A stretch of 64,000 nt of DNA from Candidatus Dadabacteria bacterium (GTDB taxonomy: Bacteria > Desulfobacterota_D > UBA1144 > Nemesobacterales > Nemesobacteraceae): the NCBI GenBank assembly GCA_028823955.1, contig JAPPFE010000016.1, positions 76,497 to 140,496 on the forward strand. The letters run 5' to 3'. Positions 57,185 through 63,556 of the stretch are shown piece by piece. Below the pieces are notes generated by a model. It was not told the DNA's origin, did no database searches, and was given only the letters and a program-made list of their open reading frames with translations. The position numbers were made by a program, and so were the translations under genes. The first letter of the stretch is position 1, and every line of letters begins with the position of its first letter.

Positions 57185-57583
57185 TTATCGCTTCGGCTCA
57201 ACTCCGATTGCTATTTTCGAGAACCCCTGGGTTTTCGCCAGATCCATGGTGCTTACCACCGGGCCGTGCATGGCTTGGGAATCCGCCCTTATTATTACTA
57301 GGGTGTCTTTGTTGGGTATCTTCTCAAACTCCCGCTTCAAAGATCTCTCGGAACGCATAAGCACGTCGTTAAAGTAAACTTTCCCGTCTTTGGCAATGTG
57401 TATGTTCACGTCTTTTATCTCAACGATTTCGCCGGTTGCTTTCGGGAGGTTGACTTTTATGCCGCTTGATATGGCGAAATTGAGTGTAAGGGCAAAGAAA
57501 ATAAGGAGGTTGAAAATCACGTCCACGATGGGAGCCATGTCTATGCCGGACCTGCTACCTGATTTTCTTTGCGAGAATTTCAT
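57185..57583 (-). CDS. exbD: ExbD/TolR biopolymer transport protein
   Basis: IDMAPIVDVIFNLLIFFALT single TM plus periplasmic domain. Confidence 0.93.
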   Translation of the reverse strand: MKFSQRKSGSRSGIDMAPIVDVIFNLLIFFALTLNFAISSGIKVNLPKATGEIVEIKDVNIHIAKDGKVYFNDVLMRSERSLKREFEKIPNKDTLVIIRADSQAMHGPVVSTMDLAKTQGFSKIAIGVEPKR

Positions 57584-58200
57584 AGAGATGCCTTTGCGGA
57601 AAAAACCTCGAGTATTTTCTTGCCTTCGTCCTCAAGCTCGGAGATTATCTCCTTGAATTTTCCGTCTGTGTATTTGTAGGCTATGAGCGCCGGGATTGCT
57701 ATCGTGAGTCCAAGAGCCGTTGTGTAGAGGGCTTCCGAGATACCTCCCGCGAGGGAAGGCGGATCCACTATATCCTTCTCCGATATGACGGCGAACACCT
57801 TTATCATGCCCGATATCGTTCCGAGAAGCCCGATAAGGGTGCTTATGCTGCTTATGGTGAGCAGAGTCTCGATATATTTTTCAAGGCCCTGTGCCTCGGT
57901 TTTTCCTGCGGCCTCAATGGCTTCATGCATTTCCTCTTTCGATTTGCCTGAGTTCTGCGCGGCCGCTAAAGCTATTTTGGCCACTGCGGAGTCGTTTGAT
58001 GCAGAAAGGGATTTTGCTTCTTGAATCCCCTTTGTCTCGACAGTCTCGTACAGGCTTGAAAGAAACTCTTCGGGGAGAAGCTTCTTCCTCTGAAGGAGTT
58101 GAAGCTTCTGGAGAAAAATCGCAAGTCCAAATATGGAACATAAAATCAGGGGGAAAATATATATTCCGCCTTTGGTAAAAAGATCAATGATTGCGTCCAT
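57580..58200 (-). CDS. exbB: MotA/TolQ/ExbB proton channel protein
   Basis: GLLGTISGMIKVF, ALYTTALGLTIAIPALIAYKY. Confidence 0.94.
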   Translation of the reverse strand: MDAIIDLFTKGGIYIFPLILCSIFGLAIFLQKLQLLQRKKLLPEEFLSSLYETVETKGIQEAKSLSASNDSAVAKIALAAAQNSGKSKEEMHEAIEAAGKTEAQGLEKYIETLLTISSISTLIGLLGTISGMIKVFAVISEKDIVDPPSLAGGISEALYTTALGLTIAIPALIAYKYTDGKFKEIISELEDEGKKILEVFSAKASL

Positions 58201-58405: not shown

Positions 58406-60033
58406 TTATCCAGACGCTGGCTTCCTGTCATAAACCCCAAGCTTCGCAATCAGGAGCAGCACGGATATGGCAAGGAGAAGATTAAACAGGACTCCCTGCC
58501 ACCGGACTGTTCCTTTACCGCTTGCGGCAACAGCGCACCCTCCCGTTTCCTCTACGAAAACCCCCGTCAGGGAAAGCCCGCCCGTCTCCGCGCAAAGAAG
58601 TTCCTCTCCGTTAACCGTCTCAAGCAACGAGGGAAGAACCTCCCACTCCCCCAGGTCATCGTTATAAAGGTAAACATCTCCCCCGGCTTGGGGCAGACAC
58701 ACAGTCACCGTCTCTTCCTCTCCAAGCGTGACTCCCAGATCCACTTCCGCGGCGAAACCCGAAAGACGAAGCCCTTGGGGTGGATCATGAGGAGAAACTC
58801 CTTGAAGCTCGAAGATTATTTCATTCACGCGGTCAAGAACATTGCGGGGTACTATCACTGCAGGATTGCCGGATGATGGTATATCCCCTGTAACGGAAAG
58901 ATCTATTGTTCTTTCCCCGTAAACTATGCTTCCTCCCACTCCAAGGGGAGTGAGGGGAAAACCGTCCTCCGTTTCTTTACCGGGGACAACCCCTTCTGCT
59001 GACTCAATAACGGGAACAAAAACTCCGAACAGGGAAAACGAGTCGGTTTCCCCGCAGAGAAGCTCTTGTTCGTTAACCTCATCAAGTCGTGATGGAAGAC
59101 GTTCCCATTCCCCGTCGTAACGGTGAATGTGCGATTCCCCTTCAATTTCAGCCGGGGGCAGGCATACCGTAACTGTCTCTGTTTGTCCGAGTCTTACTCC
59201 CGGATCTATTTCCGCTGTGCAGCCCTCCATGCGAAACCCTGGAGGGGGATCGTGGGGAGAGAGTTCTTTAAGCTCGAAGGTTATTTCCCTGACACGGTCA
59301 AGAGTGCTTCGGGATATGATCACTGCCGGGTTGTCTGGCGATGGACATTCATCCCGGGTAACGGAGAGATCTATTGTTCTTCTCCTGTAGACTATGTTTC
59401 CTCCTTCTCCAAGGGGAGTGAGGAAAAAACCCTCAGTTGCGTTCCCGCTGTAAGTAACCCCTTCTGCGGAAGTAATGACAGGTGGTGGGGGTGGAGGAGG
59501 GGGTGGTGGTGGCGCCGTGGGATCCGTCAGGCTTAGCGAGATCATATCTCCGTGGTTCCAAGTCAGGCTGGTGACGGTCCATTGCGCGGTCTTGTCGCTG
59601 TTGGAGAGATTTGCACTGGCGATGGTAAACGAACTACTGCCCACATGGAACGTCAGATCCTGAGGGACTGCTTTATCGAGTGTGAGACTTAGGTTTGAAC
59701 CGTCGAGAATGATTGTTGTGAACTGATAACTTATGTCCTTGTGTGTGAAGGAGCTGGAAGTGAGTGCACTGCTGCAGGGATTACTACCTACATTAATGCA
59801 ACCACGGGCAGTGGGTCCTACTCCCTGCACGGTCAGTTTGGCAGACCAGACGGTGGCCTGCGCCGTAGCGGTCCTGGAGTGGAGCAGCAGAGCAGCGATC
59901 AGTAAAAGGGCGAAAAACAGTATAGAAAAACGGAAAAAAACGGCGCTGCGGGAGCTAGGCCGACGATTTTTTAGGGGGGGGGTAGAATCAAGCCGGGTTC
60001 ACGAAAATCACTTCTGAAGTTGTTTTCTTTCAT
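58406..60033 (-). CDS. Secreted surface protein, two ~155-aa repeats, poly-Pro hinge, C-terminal TM anchor; start region out of frame by one base at a G9 tract
   Basis: ORF track gives 58406-59830 (GTG). The frame continues upstream through a signal peptide (FRFSILFFALLLIAALLLHSRTATAQA) with no ATG/GTG/TTG; ATG with SD at 60033 is in the other frame and joins it if the tract is 10 or 7. Confidence 0.7.
58550..59479 (-). repeat. Two tandem ~155-aa protein modules (A ~59012-59479, B ~58550-59011)
   Basis: SAEGV..G..TE.GF.LTPLG.GG.IVY..RTIDLSVT..P..NPAVI..R..LDRV.EI.FEL...SPHDPP.G.R shared. Confidence 0.88.
59974..59982. repeat. G9 homopolymer (poly-C on the coding strand) near the 5' end of the surface-protein gene
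   Basis: Direct read: ttttttaGGGGGGGGGtagaatc. Confidence 0.9.
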
Positions 60034-60072
60034 TTTCATTCTCCACTTGACAGAGTTTTAAAACTGAATTCG

Positions 60073-60131: not shown

Positions 60132-60300
60132 CTTTGTCAAGGCAAGAAATCGACATACGAGAAATCGGAGTATTAGTAATAAACTAATTGTATAGCTGGT
60201 CCCCTAGGCTTGCGGAGTTCTCCCTGGTTTCGGGGTCTATAATTGTTTTCCGCCGTTTTTTTCGGGTAGATTTTCTAGCTTCAAACCCGCGGAGACTTAC

Positions 60301-61566
60301 ATGATGACTTCCGATTTTGAATATACTGACGGTGAACTTTACGTTGAGAAAGTTCCCGTAAGGAAAATATGCGAGGACTTCGGAACTCCGGTCTATATCT
60401 ACAGCCACAATTCCATCCGCTCAAGCTTCCTTGAGTACAAGGATGCGTTTTCCGAAATCGACCCCCTGATCTGCTATTCCGTAAAGGCGAACTCTAATAT
60501 ATCCGTACTCAAGATTTTCTCCTCCATGGATTCCGGTTTCGATATAGTCTCGTCGGGGGAGCTGCAGAGGGTTGTCACCGCCGGGGGAGACACCTCGAAA
60601 GTGGTGTTCTCGGGAGTCGGGAAGACCGAAGAGGAGATAGAGGCCGCAATTCGCTCCCGGATACTTTTTTTCAACGTGGAATCCGAAGCGGAGCTTCAGA
60701 AGATAAACGATGTGGCCGTCTCGCTCGGAGAGAAAGCCCCGGTCGCGATAAGGGTTAATCCTGATGTTGATCCCGACACCCATCCGTACATATCGACTGG
60801 TTTTGAGAAAAGCAAGTTCGGAATCGGGATCGAAAAAGCTGTGGATGTATACAGAAACGCCTCACGGATGGGGGGAATTGAGATAAGGGGAATTGATGCC
60901 CATATAGGTTCCCAGATATTTGATCTTTCCTCCTTTTCCGAGTCCATATCGAAGCTTGTCTACCTGGCCGACAGGCTCGGGAGCGACGGGATTGAAATTT
61001 CCTACATAGACATAGGAGGGGGTCTGGCGATAAGCTACGAGAGCGAGGAAAAGCCTCCGGCGAAATCCGAGTACGCGCGGGTTTTCGAGGAACACCTTCG
61101 CGATACCAGTTACGGACTGGTCCTTGAGCCCGGGAGATCAATGGTGGGCAACGCGGGGATAATGTCTACCGGGGTGCTTTATGTTAAGGAGGGGACCTCG
61201 AAGAAATTCGTAATAGTCGACGCCGCGATGAACGACCTTGTGAGACCCGCGTTTTACGATTCGTTCCACCGGATAGAACCGGTGCGCGTGGGAGGTTCTG
61301 AATCCCGCGAGGTGGTGGACATAGTCGGCCCGATATGCGAATCGGGCGATTTTCTGGCCAGAGACAGGAGTTTCCCCGAAGTTTCCGCGGGAGATCTGCT
61401 TGCGGTTTTCAGCGCGGGGGCGTACGGTTTCGTGATGTCGTCTAATTACAACACGAGACCCCGGGCTGCCGAGGTTCTTGTAAGCGGTGAGAGGTACTGC
61501 GAGATAAGGGCTAGGGAAACTCTCGAGGATCTCCTGAAAGCTGAGAGCATCGCGGAATTTCTTTAG
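60301..61566 (+). CDS. lysA: Diaminopimelate decarboxylase
   Basis: YSVKANSNISVLKI, HIGSQIFD, DIGGGLAISY, EPGRSMVGNAG. Confidence 0.96.
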   Translation: MMTSDFEYTDGELYVEKVPVRKICEDFGTPVYIYSHNSIRSSFLEYKDAFSEIDPLICYSVKANSNISVLKIFSSMDSGFDIVSSGELQRVVTAGGDTSKVVFSGVGKTEEEIEAAIRSRILFFNVESEAELQKINDVAVSLGEKAPVAIRVNPDVDPDTHPYISTGFEKSKFGIGIEKAVDVYRNASRMGGIEIRGIDAHIGSQIFDLSSFSESISKLVYLADRLGSDGIEISYIDIGGGLAISYESEEKPPAKSEYARVFEEHLRDTSYGLVLEPGRSMVGNAGIMSTGVLYVKEGTSKKFVIVDAAMNDLVRPAFYDSFHRIEPVRVGGSESREVVDIVGPICESGDFLARDRSFPEVSAGDLLAVFSAGAYGFVMSSNYNTRPRAAEVLVSGERYCEIRARETLEDLLKAESIAEFL

Positions 61567-61594: not shown

Positions 61595-63556
61595 ATGAAA
61601 CAGGGTTTTAACGGGCTTAAGGTAACGTCTTTTGAAAGTCGCCGTTGCGAGGAGATGAAAAAACTCATCTCTTATCACGGCGGTGTGCCTAGGGTCGCAC
61701 CCTCGATGAGGGAAGTCCCCGATCTTAAAAGTCCTTACGTTGCCGGGTTTGCCGATGATCTTTTCTCGGGCAACGTTGATATCCTTGTGCTGATGACGGG
61801 GGTGGGCACCCGGATCCTCTCCGACATGGTGATCGCGGAGTCGGAGGAAAAGAAATATTTGGATGCCCTGCGCGCGACGACGATTCTCGCCAGAGGTCCT
61901 AAACCCGTGGCGGCCCTTCGCAAGTTCGGGATAAGGCCGAATATCACCGTTCCTGAACCGAACACGTGGAGAGACATACTTTCCACTTTTGACCAGAGGG
62001 ACATGTCGCTTGAGAACCTGGTCGTGTACGTCCAGGAATACGGGGTCTCCAACGAGGAGTTTCTCGCTTCTCTTGAAAAAAGAGGGGCTGACGTAAGAAG
62101 AATTCCCATTTACAGGTGGGCGCTGCCGGAGGATCTGGGTCCCCTGCGCGATGCCGTAAGATCCGTATCCAAGGGGGAGGAGGACTGCCTCCTGTTCACA
62201 AGCTCCCGGCAGGTATCCAACCTTTTTGAGGTGGCGACCGGGGAAGGATATGCCGACGACTTCATTGAAGGAATCAAAAAAGCGCTTGTATGTTCAATCG
62301 GACCGACCACCACGGAGACACTCAGGGAAAACGGGATATCCGTTGACTATGAGCCCGACAGCCCGAAAATGGGGAACCTGGTGAGAGAGGTGGCCAGAAG
62401 GTCAGCGGCGCTTCTCGCCAAAAAAAGAACAGCTTTTCAAAACGGGGTGGATACCCGGAACTGGAACCGCACGCAGATGGTCTGGTCGGAGGACGCCGCG
62501 CAGGTCCAAAGGAGAGAAATCACTTCTGAAGGAGCATTTATGAAGGCGTGTCGGCTCGAGAAAGCCGATTATACTCCCATCTGGCTTATGCGACAGGCGG
62601 GCAGGTTTCTTCGGGAATACAGGGAGACCCGCTCCCGCGTTTCTTTCAAGGAGTTTTGCAAGACCCCGGATCTGGCCTCGGAAATTACACTGATGGTGGT
62701 TGACCGCTTCGGCGTGGACGCGGCCATCATTTTCTCAGACATACTGCTCATACTGGAACCCCTGGGGCTTTCCCTTGAGTACTCAAGCGTTGACGGTCCC
62801 GTGATAGCCGGGCCTCTTAGGACCCGAAGGCGCATAGAGGCCCTGAGGGAGTTTGATCCCGAAAGCATGGATTTTGTCTACGAGGCTCTGCGTATCACGA
62901 GAAAGGCGCTCGCCCCCGAAGTTTCGCTTATTGGTTTTAGCGGTGCTCCCTTTACCGTGGCTTCCTATGCGGTTGAGGGGAGCGGTTCAAAAAACTACGT
63001 AAACACGAAAAAACTCATGTATGGAGACCCTTCCCTGTGGGAGAGATTGATGAAGATCCTGACCGAGAGCATTTCGGATTATCTCTGCGCTCAGGTGGAT
63101 GCCGGGGCCGATGCCGTGCAGATTTTCGACAGTTGGGTGGGTTGTCTTTCCCCGGCGGATTACGAAAGATTCGTCTTTCCGCACGTAAGGAAACTCATCT
63201 CGGCGCTTCCGCCGGAAGTCCCGGTAATATTGTTCGGGACCGGAACCGGTTCCTTGCTCGAACTCATGGGAGATACCGGGGCTGGAGTTATCGGCCTTGA
63301 CTGGAGGGTCGATATTCTTGACGGCTGGCAGAGGGCGGGAAGTTCTCTTGCGGTTCAGGGGAATCTTGATCCGGTCTCAATGCTCTCAACCCCGTCTCAT
63401 GTCGTGGAGGAGGCGAGGAAGATACTGGACAGAGTGGAAGGGAGGCCCGGGCATATATTCAATCTGGGTCACGGTGTACTGCCGCAGACGCCGGTTGATA
63501 ATGTCCTGAGGCTGATTGATGAAGTTCACGAGTATTCCGCGCGAAAGGGGGCTTAG
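61595..63556 (+). CDS. hemE: Fused uroporphyrinogen-III synthase (HemD) - uroporphyrinogen decarboxylase (HemE)
   Basis: N-terminus VTSFESRRCEEMKKLI, TGVGTR (HemD-like); from 62540 YTPIWLMRQAGRFLREYRE, GFSGAPFTVASY (HemE); continuous ORF. Confidence 0.9.
   Translation: MKQGFNGLKVTSFESRRCEEMKKLISYHGGVPRVAPSMREVPDLKSPYVAGFADDLFSGNVDILVLMTGVGTRILSDMVIAESEEKKYLDALRATTILARGPKPVAALRKFGIRPNITVPEPNTWRDILSTFDQRDMSLENLVVYVQEYGVSNEEFLASLEKRGADVRRIPIYRWALPEDLGPLRDAVRSVSKGEEDCLLFTSSRQVSNLFEVATGEGYADDFIEGIKKALVCSIGPTTTETLRENGISVDYEPDSPKMGNLVREVARRSAALLAKKRTAFQNGVDTRNWNRTQMVWSEDAAQVQRREITSEGAFMKACRLEKADYTPIWLMRQAGRFLREYRETRSRVSFKEFCKTPDLASEITLMVVDRFGVDAAIIFSDILLILEPLGLSLEYSSVDGPVIAGPLRTRRRIEALREFDPESMDFVYEALRITRKALAPEVSLIGFSGAPFTVASYAVEGSGSKNYVNTKKLMYGDPSLWERLMKILTESISDYLCAQVDAGADAVQIFDSWVGCLSPADYERFVFPHVRKLISALPPEVPVILFGTGTGSLLELMGDTGAGVIGLDWRVDILDGWQRAGSSLAVQGNLDPVSMLSTPSHVVEEARKILDRVEGRPGHIFNLGHGVLPQTPVDNVLRLIDEVHEYSARKGA

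Follow-up and report, generated by a model that had tools for sequence, protein, structure and literature searches.

A poly-C tract ahead of the signal peptide as a probable slipped-strand switch of surface proteins in Candidatus Dadabacteria

The best-known cases of slipped-strand phase variation come from vertebrate pathogens, and in the porA/opc type of Neisseria the homopolymers lie in promoter spacers. In Neisseria, Campylobacter and Helicobacter, poly-G and poly-C tracts form translational contingency loci (hmbR/hpuAB, PMC3786947; Campylobacter phasome, PMC6321876). In Listeria, a frameshift in the 5' poly-A tract of inlA leaves a very short peptide and reversibly silences a surface LRR protein (PMC2831843). 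LRR, fn3 and cadherin domains are reported to be enriched in sponge symbionts, and Dadabacteria are among the phyla listed in the study concerned (PMC8163846), in which 'phase vari' does not occur. A literature search, outside which most subscription papers lay, found nothing joining Dadabacteria or Porifera symbionts with phase variation.

Here we analyse a 64,000-nt stretch of a Candidatus Dadabacteria contig (the window), in which a phase-variable surface protein had been predicted from the sequence. The features of the locus and its neighbours are as follows.

60301 to 61566, plus strand: lysA, the divergent neighbour, a locus marker in 14/14 genomes
60135 to 60140, minus strand: TTGACA, a putative -35 box by sequence; G011 has TTGACA too
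60041 to 60044, minus strand: Shine-Dalgarno-like GGAG by sequence, spaced 7 nt from ATG 60033
59971 to 60033, minus strand: short leader frame (class B) from ATG 60033, with TAA straight after the tract
59974 to 59982, minus strand: C9 homopolymer (G9 on the plus strand), the proposed switch, from sequence and tract statistics
59855 to 59974, minus strand: signal peptide region, part of the downstream frame and lacking a start codon
59522 to 59854, minus strand: variable N-terminal domain of the TVWSAKLTV type; an unrelated fn3 domain stands in its place at the G011 locus
59480 to 59521, minus strand: poly-proline linker, the site of domain exchange
58550 to 59479, minus strand: a genus-restricted domain, present twice (IVY..RTIDLSVTxD ... 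ETVTVCLP)
58409 to 58549, minus strand: C-terminal tail with GGC motif, hydrophobic helix and basic end, sorting-signal-like by sequence
57185 to 58200, minus strand: exbB/exbD-like pair

When the sequence was re-read, each element of the original prediction was in place: GGAG lies 7 nt ahead of ATG 60033, and the leader frame, MKENNFRSDFREPGLILPPP, ends just past the C9 tract at TAA (59973-59971). A second ATG lies in the leader frame at 60039. The downstream frame, LKNRRPSSRSAVFFRFSILFFALLLIAALLLHSRTATAQA, is intact over 522 codons and open as far as 58406. Frame reading also bore out that ATG, GTG and TTG are absent from it between the preceding stop and the signal peptide, and its earliest start codon is GTG 59830, within the mature domain. 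With C10 instead of C9, leader and downstream frame would make a single protein of 20 + 522 = 542 aa, which agrees with the claim that a +1 change fuses them into a secreted protein of about that size. A slippable homopolymer in the 5' coding region therefore sets the reading frame at this locus. The window holds one G9 run, and dinucleotide shuffles give 1.3 expected; since about one nine-base run is expected in such a window, the tract by itself is no proof, whereas its recurrence is.

The locus resembles those of Neisseria, Campylobacter and Helicobacter in its 5' coding G/C homopolymer, in a frame that means ON or OFF, in concerning surface or host-interaction proteins and in tract lengths that vary among relatives. 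In contrast to them, it belongs to an uncultured phylum, probably to a sponge symbiont, mutS is present, the tract sits in a leader ahead of the signal peptide, and the system is known here from cross-species comparison. With Listeria inlA it shares a 5' homopolymer frameshift that leaves a short peptide in a surface-protein gene; however, inlA is a single gene with poly-A, whereas here the tract is poly-C and the genes form a family with recurrent leaders. The proposed mechanism is of a classical known kind, and its setting in Dadabacteria and sponge symbionts is unexpected and without report in the searched literature.

We compared 14 species of the genus, with one genome per species. A paralogue on another contig, 79% identical, has the same C9 (L002:1493-1501) and the same out-of-frame layout, and homologues in other species share tract, position and layout; recurrence in both is what chance does not give. 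Sixteen clear loci, with leader ATG, poly-C and signal peptide, were found in 7 species. Four cases were left out as unclear (contigs C1 and C4 of G008, C1 of G011 and C25 of G000), as was contig C23 of G013, whose MNFQ... start would mean ON but has a competitor in a longer, conserved leader of a different frame. The tracts at the 16 loci are C5, C7, C9, C11 or C15, with C9 at 10 of them, mostly at the same offset (four of the tracts are listed as C8 in the locus table, where the query peptide starts from the ninth C, and are C9 in the sequence itself); 13 loci are out of frame (OFF) and three in frame (ON), which fits one in three (P = 0.17). In the genus, 50 matches to the pattern CTACYCCCCCC were found, and several-fold fewer to its reversed control. 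As a guard against bias to long tracts, profile searches with the N- and C-terminal domains were added and the 5' ends of the matches then read, a route that added C5, C7, C11, C15 and interrupted tracts; in row 7 of profile seed A1 the first few residues are LLRS where the locus's own are EVPNF, and this row served as seed alone. The comparison with relatives that the original prediction had proposed thus gave lengths varying across related loci and genomes from C5 to C15, with ON and OFF lengths both present, a minority in frame, and no fixed in-frame tract.

Four classes of leader could be distinguished, each recurring across species with an identical start codon and at a similar distance from the tract.

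Leader class A: MHFENEKSD...
Leader class B (window): MKENNF...; also on contigs C6 of G011 and C3 and C5 of G008
Leader class C: MKNSAHRN...
Leader class D: MCFDHKSSQ...

In class D, C7 is ON in G002 and C15 is OFF in G009; in class C, one G001 copy is ON and the other OFF through one base beside the tract. Such state differences within a leader class are what frame switching would be expected to produce, and a fixed mutation held in common would not. One class C gene (L037:1377-1386, contig C8 of G011) has a G10 in its ribosome-binding region in addition to the coding C9, and at the site of this G10 orthologous class C leaders have short G runs alone.

Comparison of copies whose assembled state is OFF gives a dN/dS of 0.24-0.40 gene-wide and of 0.37 over the 41 codons directly after the tract. 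The downstream frame is not degraded but intact and under selection, and these values in OFF copies imply that translation of the silent frame is frequent enough to preserve it. Together with the varying tract lengths among relatives, this purifying selection supports the phase-variable reading originally proposed. In the fetched stretches, which include loci chosen by family homology, a gene start of signal-peptide type falls between -60 and +260 nt for 45 of 114 distinct C/G runs of at least 9 (39%); the controls gave 7.6% for random positions in the same stretches, 7.0% for A/T runs of at least 8 and 5.4% for C/G runs of exactly 6. For the stretches from L300 on, found with the plain C10 pattern, 12 of 46 (26%) lie near signal-peptide starts, one of them a likely artefact: this G51 run in G011 stands beside a stretch of N and was rejected as a real tract. 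Loss of mismatch repair was likewise rejected as the cause of slippage, as mutS is present in 13/14 genomes; slippage would need to occur with no general repair defect to favour it.

In most sister species lysA directly adjoins exbB, without a surface gene between them. A surface gene with poly-C stands there in the window species (C9), G011 (C9) and G003 (C11), and in G013 a transposase. Three Candidatus Dadabacteria MAG records contain a LysA that shares 91-97% identity with that of the window. Between G011 and the window, DNA identity is 98.4% for lysA and 96.4% for exbBD; the G011 gene at this locus consists of two pieces (contigs C6 and C32), joined solely through their synteny with lysA and exbB. 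It retains the leader region at 92% and the C-terminal half at 91%, but its N-domain is an unrelated fn3. The breakpoint of this domain swap is the poly-proline linker. Beyond lysA, window positions 61595-63556 hold HemD and HemE domains in one ORF, a uroporphyrinogen-III synthase fused to uroporphyrinogen decarboxylase.

The place of this exchange bears on an alternative in which poly-C serves mainly as a boundary, set by recombination or element insertion, where different leaders and cassettes are joined. Paralogue homology starts close to the tract and upstream leaders differ, some tracts lie near contig ends, and the same foreign sequence abuts the tract in L011 and L052. However, within a leader class, conservation across species extends to the leader as well as to the post-tract region, and the clear domain exchange occurs at the linker, away from the tract; we consider this explanation improbable as the main one, and a boundary role and slippage can coexist. 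It is quite improbable that C9 is itself the working length, from which RNA polymerase or ribosome slippage would yield some full-length protein. Although C9 is strikingly common and mostly at the same offset, the occurrence of lengths 5, 7, 11 and 15 and of genes plainly in frame means that this offset is not conserved. A homopolymer miscall or assembly error, with a true C10 and the gene in frame, had been raised with the original prediction, and C9 runs are indeed error-prone. Yet the paralogue and genes of other species carry the same tract, off frame, in the corresponding position, errors would be needed both ways (C9 and C11 for a C10 ON state), C7 and C11 are in frame in some other members, and the contig names of G003 are typical of a short-read assembler; this reading is very improbable, and a true C10 would still be a slippable tract of the same family. 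Least probable is the simple frameshift also raised there, fixed in a fresh pseudogene, as despite the 13 loci out of frame and a G003 tract (contig C3) that is down to C5 and looks locked OFF, it would require the same event at the same base in two paralogues and several species, 500-1000 codons remain open and dN/dS is well below 1.

We therefore judge it highly likely, from the sequence comparisons, that the window locus is a contingency locus with slipped-strand translational ON/OFF switching. Comparison establishes its layout, recurrence across species, tract-length differences, both states and selection on the silent frame. The poly-C would gain or lose C's through slipped-strand mispairing during replication. 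At one length in three (C10; also C7 and C13), translation from ATG 60033 would pass the tract into the signal peptide and give the exported protein of 542 aa, whose C-terminal GGC-helix-basic tail probably serves to hold or sort it, and the remaining lengths would give the short peptide alone, leaving the protein OFF. As several family members have their own tract, a random subset may be displayed per cell, presumably at the surface, where it may act in encounters with sponge cells or phages. A counter-point is that most family tracts are exactly C9 (OFF), a narrower spread than in a classical phasome. Nevertheless, these Dadabacteria very probably switch such surface proteins on and off at random, like some pathogens.

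The window protein comprises a signal peptide, a beta-rich N-domain, the poly-proline linker, two genus-restricted domains and the GGC-helix-basic tail. It has no significant Pfam match and no NCBIfam or PDB family match, Pfam and PDB searches with the genus-restricted C-terminal repeat gave no match, and a protein scan of genome contigs with the window protein returned no relative, with viral contigs likewise giving none. Its tail matches no NCBIfam sorting-domain model of CTERM-sorted proteins (JDVT/MYXO type); the best relative's tail reached 20.5 bits in these models, below the curated cut-off of 27. The AlphaFold model is of low confidence (pLDDT 46.6) and was set aside for fold searching. 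Other family members, sharing the leader class or C-terminal domain, have eukaryotic-like domains (LRR, fn3, cadherin-like, Calx-beta), and SWM domains also occur in the family. The likeness to the eukaryotic-like proteins of sponge symbionts (PMC8163846) thus extends to likely host type, phylum and the LRR, fn3 and cadherin-like domains of members, whereas Pfam recognised no eukaryotic-like domain in the window protein itself. The Dadabacteria MAG records, together with Dadabacteria MAGs of the sponge study, indicate that the genus is probably sponge-associated.

A second class of tract was found in the genus. The element TTGAC[AT]-N6-G9-TAGA[AGT]T, with a spacer of 15, occurs at six loci in five species ahead of small secreted proteins and lipoproteins, and in TTGACA-N6-G9-TAGAAT the poly-G is flanked by boxes resembling -35 and -10 elements, ahead of genes for secreted proteins or lipoproteins. 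Another element is longer, TTGAC-G8..13 followed by the conserved tail GTTTAACTGGAATA...TTTTTAGAAGTGCC, and lies ahead of LRR and other exported proteins.

Spacer-15 element (G000 and four other species): L013 (G000 C29:18309), L051, L054, L069, L084, L086
Longer TTGAC-poly-G element (several near contig ends): L005, L014, L075, L210, L213, L214, L216, L225, L230

Both poly-G elements look like candidate promoter-spacer contingency tracts. By sequence, TTGACA-N6-G9-TAGAAT is thus a candidate for the porA/opc type, to which the tract of the window gene does not belong. Other tracts were noted as well. An intergenic G10-G11 lies about 230 nt upstream of a lipoprotein gene in G000 (C37:4574, L016), G012 (L328) and G011 (L332), its length differing among species. 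In L020 and L021 (G000 C52:1828 and C55:4311), two exported proteins have an in-frame G9, read as glycine codons, in or beside their signal peptides, and this could be another switch type. The sequence CAGTACCTTTCTAAAAGCTTGAAT abuts the poly-C tract at contig ends in two species (L011, end of G000 C25; L052, end of G013 C16), L004 (end of G000 C31) being grouped with these cases; it is possibly an insertion element that entered a gene with a class C leader at its poly-C.

Taken more widely, we find a genus-wide phasome fairly likely, with poly-C in the leaders of modular eukaryotic-like surface proteins and poly-G in the promoters of other secreted proteins. The host-interaction proteins shown by a clonal symbiont population would then form a mosaic that keeps changing, and exchange of N-domains at poly-proline linkers would diversify it further. 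Switching would also account for the truncated or start-less look that such genes can have in metagenome-assembled genomes. Eukaryotic-like proteins are thought to allow sponge symbionts to live among phagocytic host cells; if they are indeed switched in this way, a stable animal symbiosis, too, would make use of surface variation at random to counter host recognition, phages or both.
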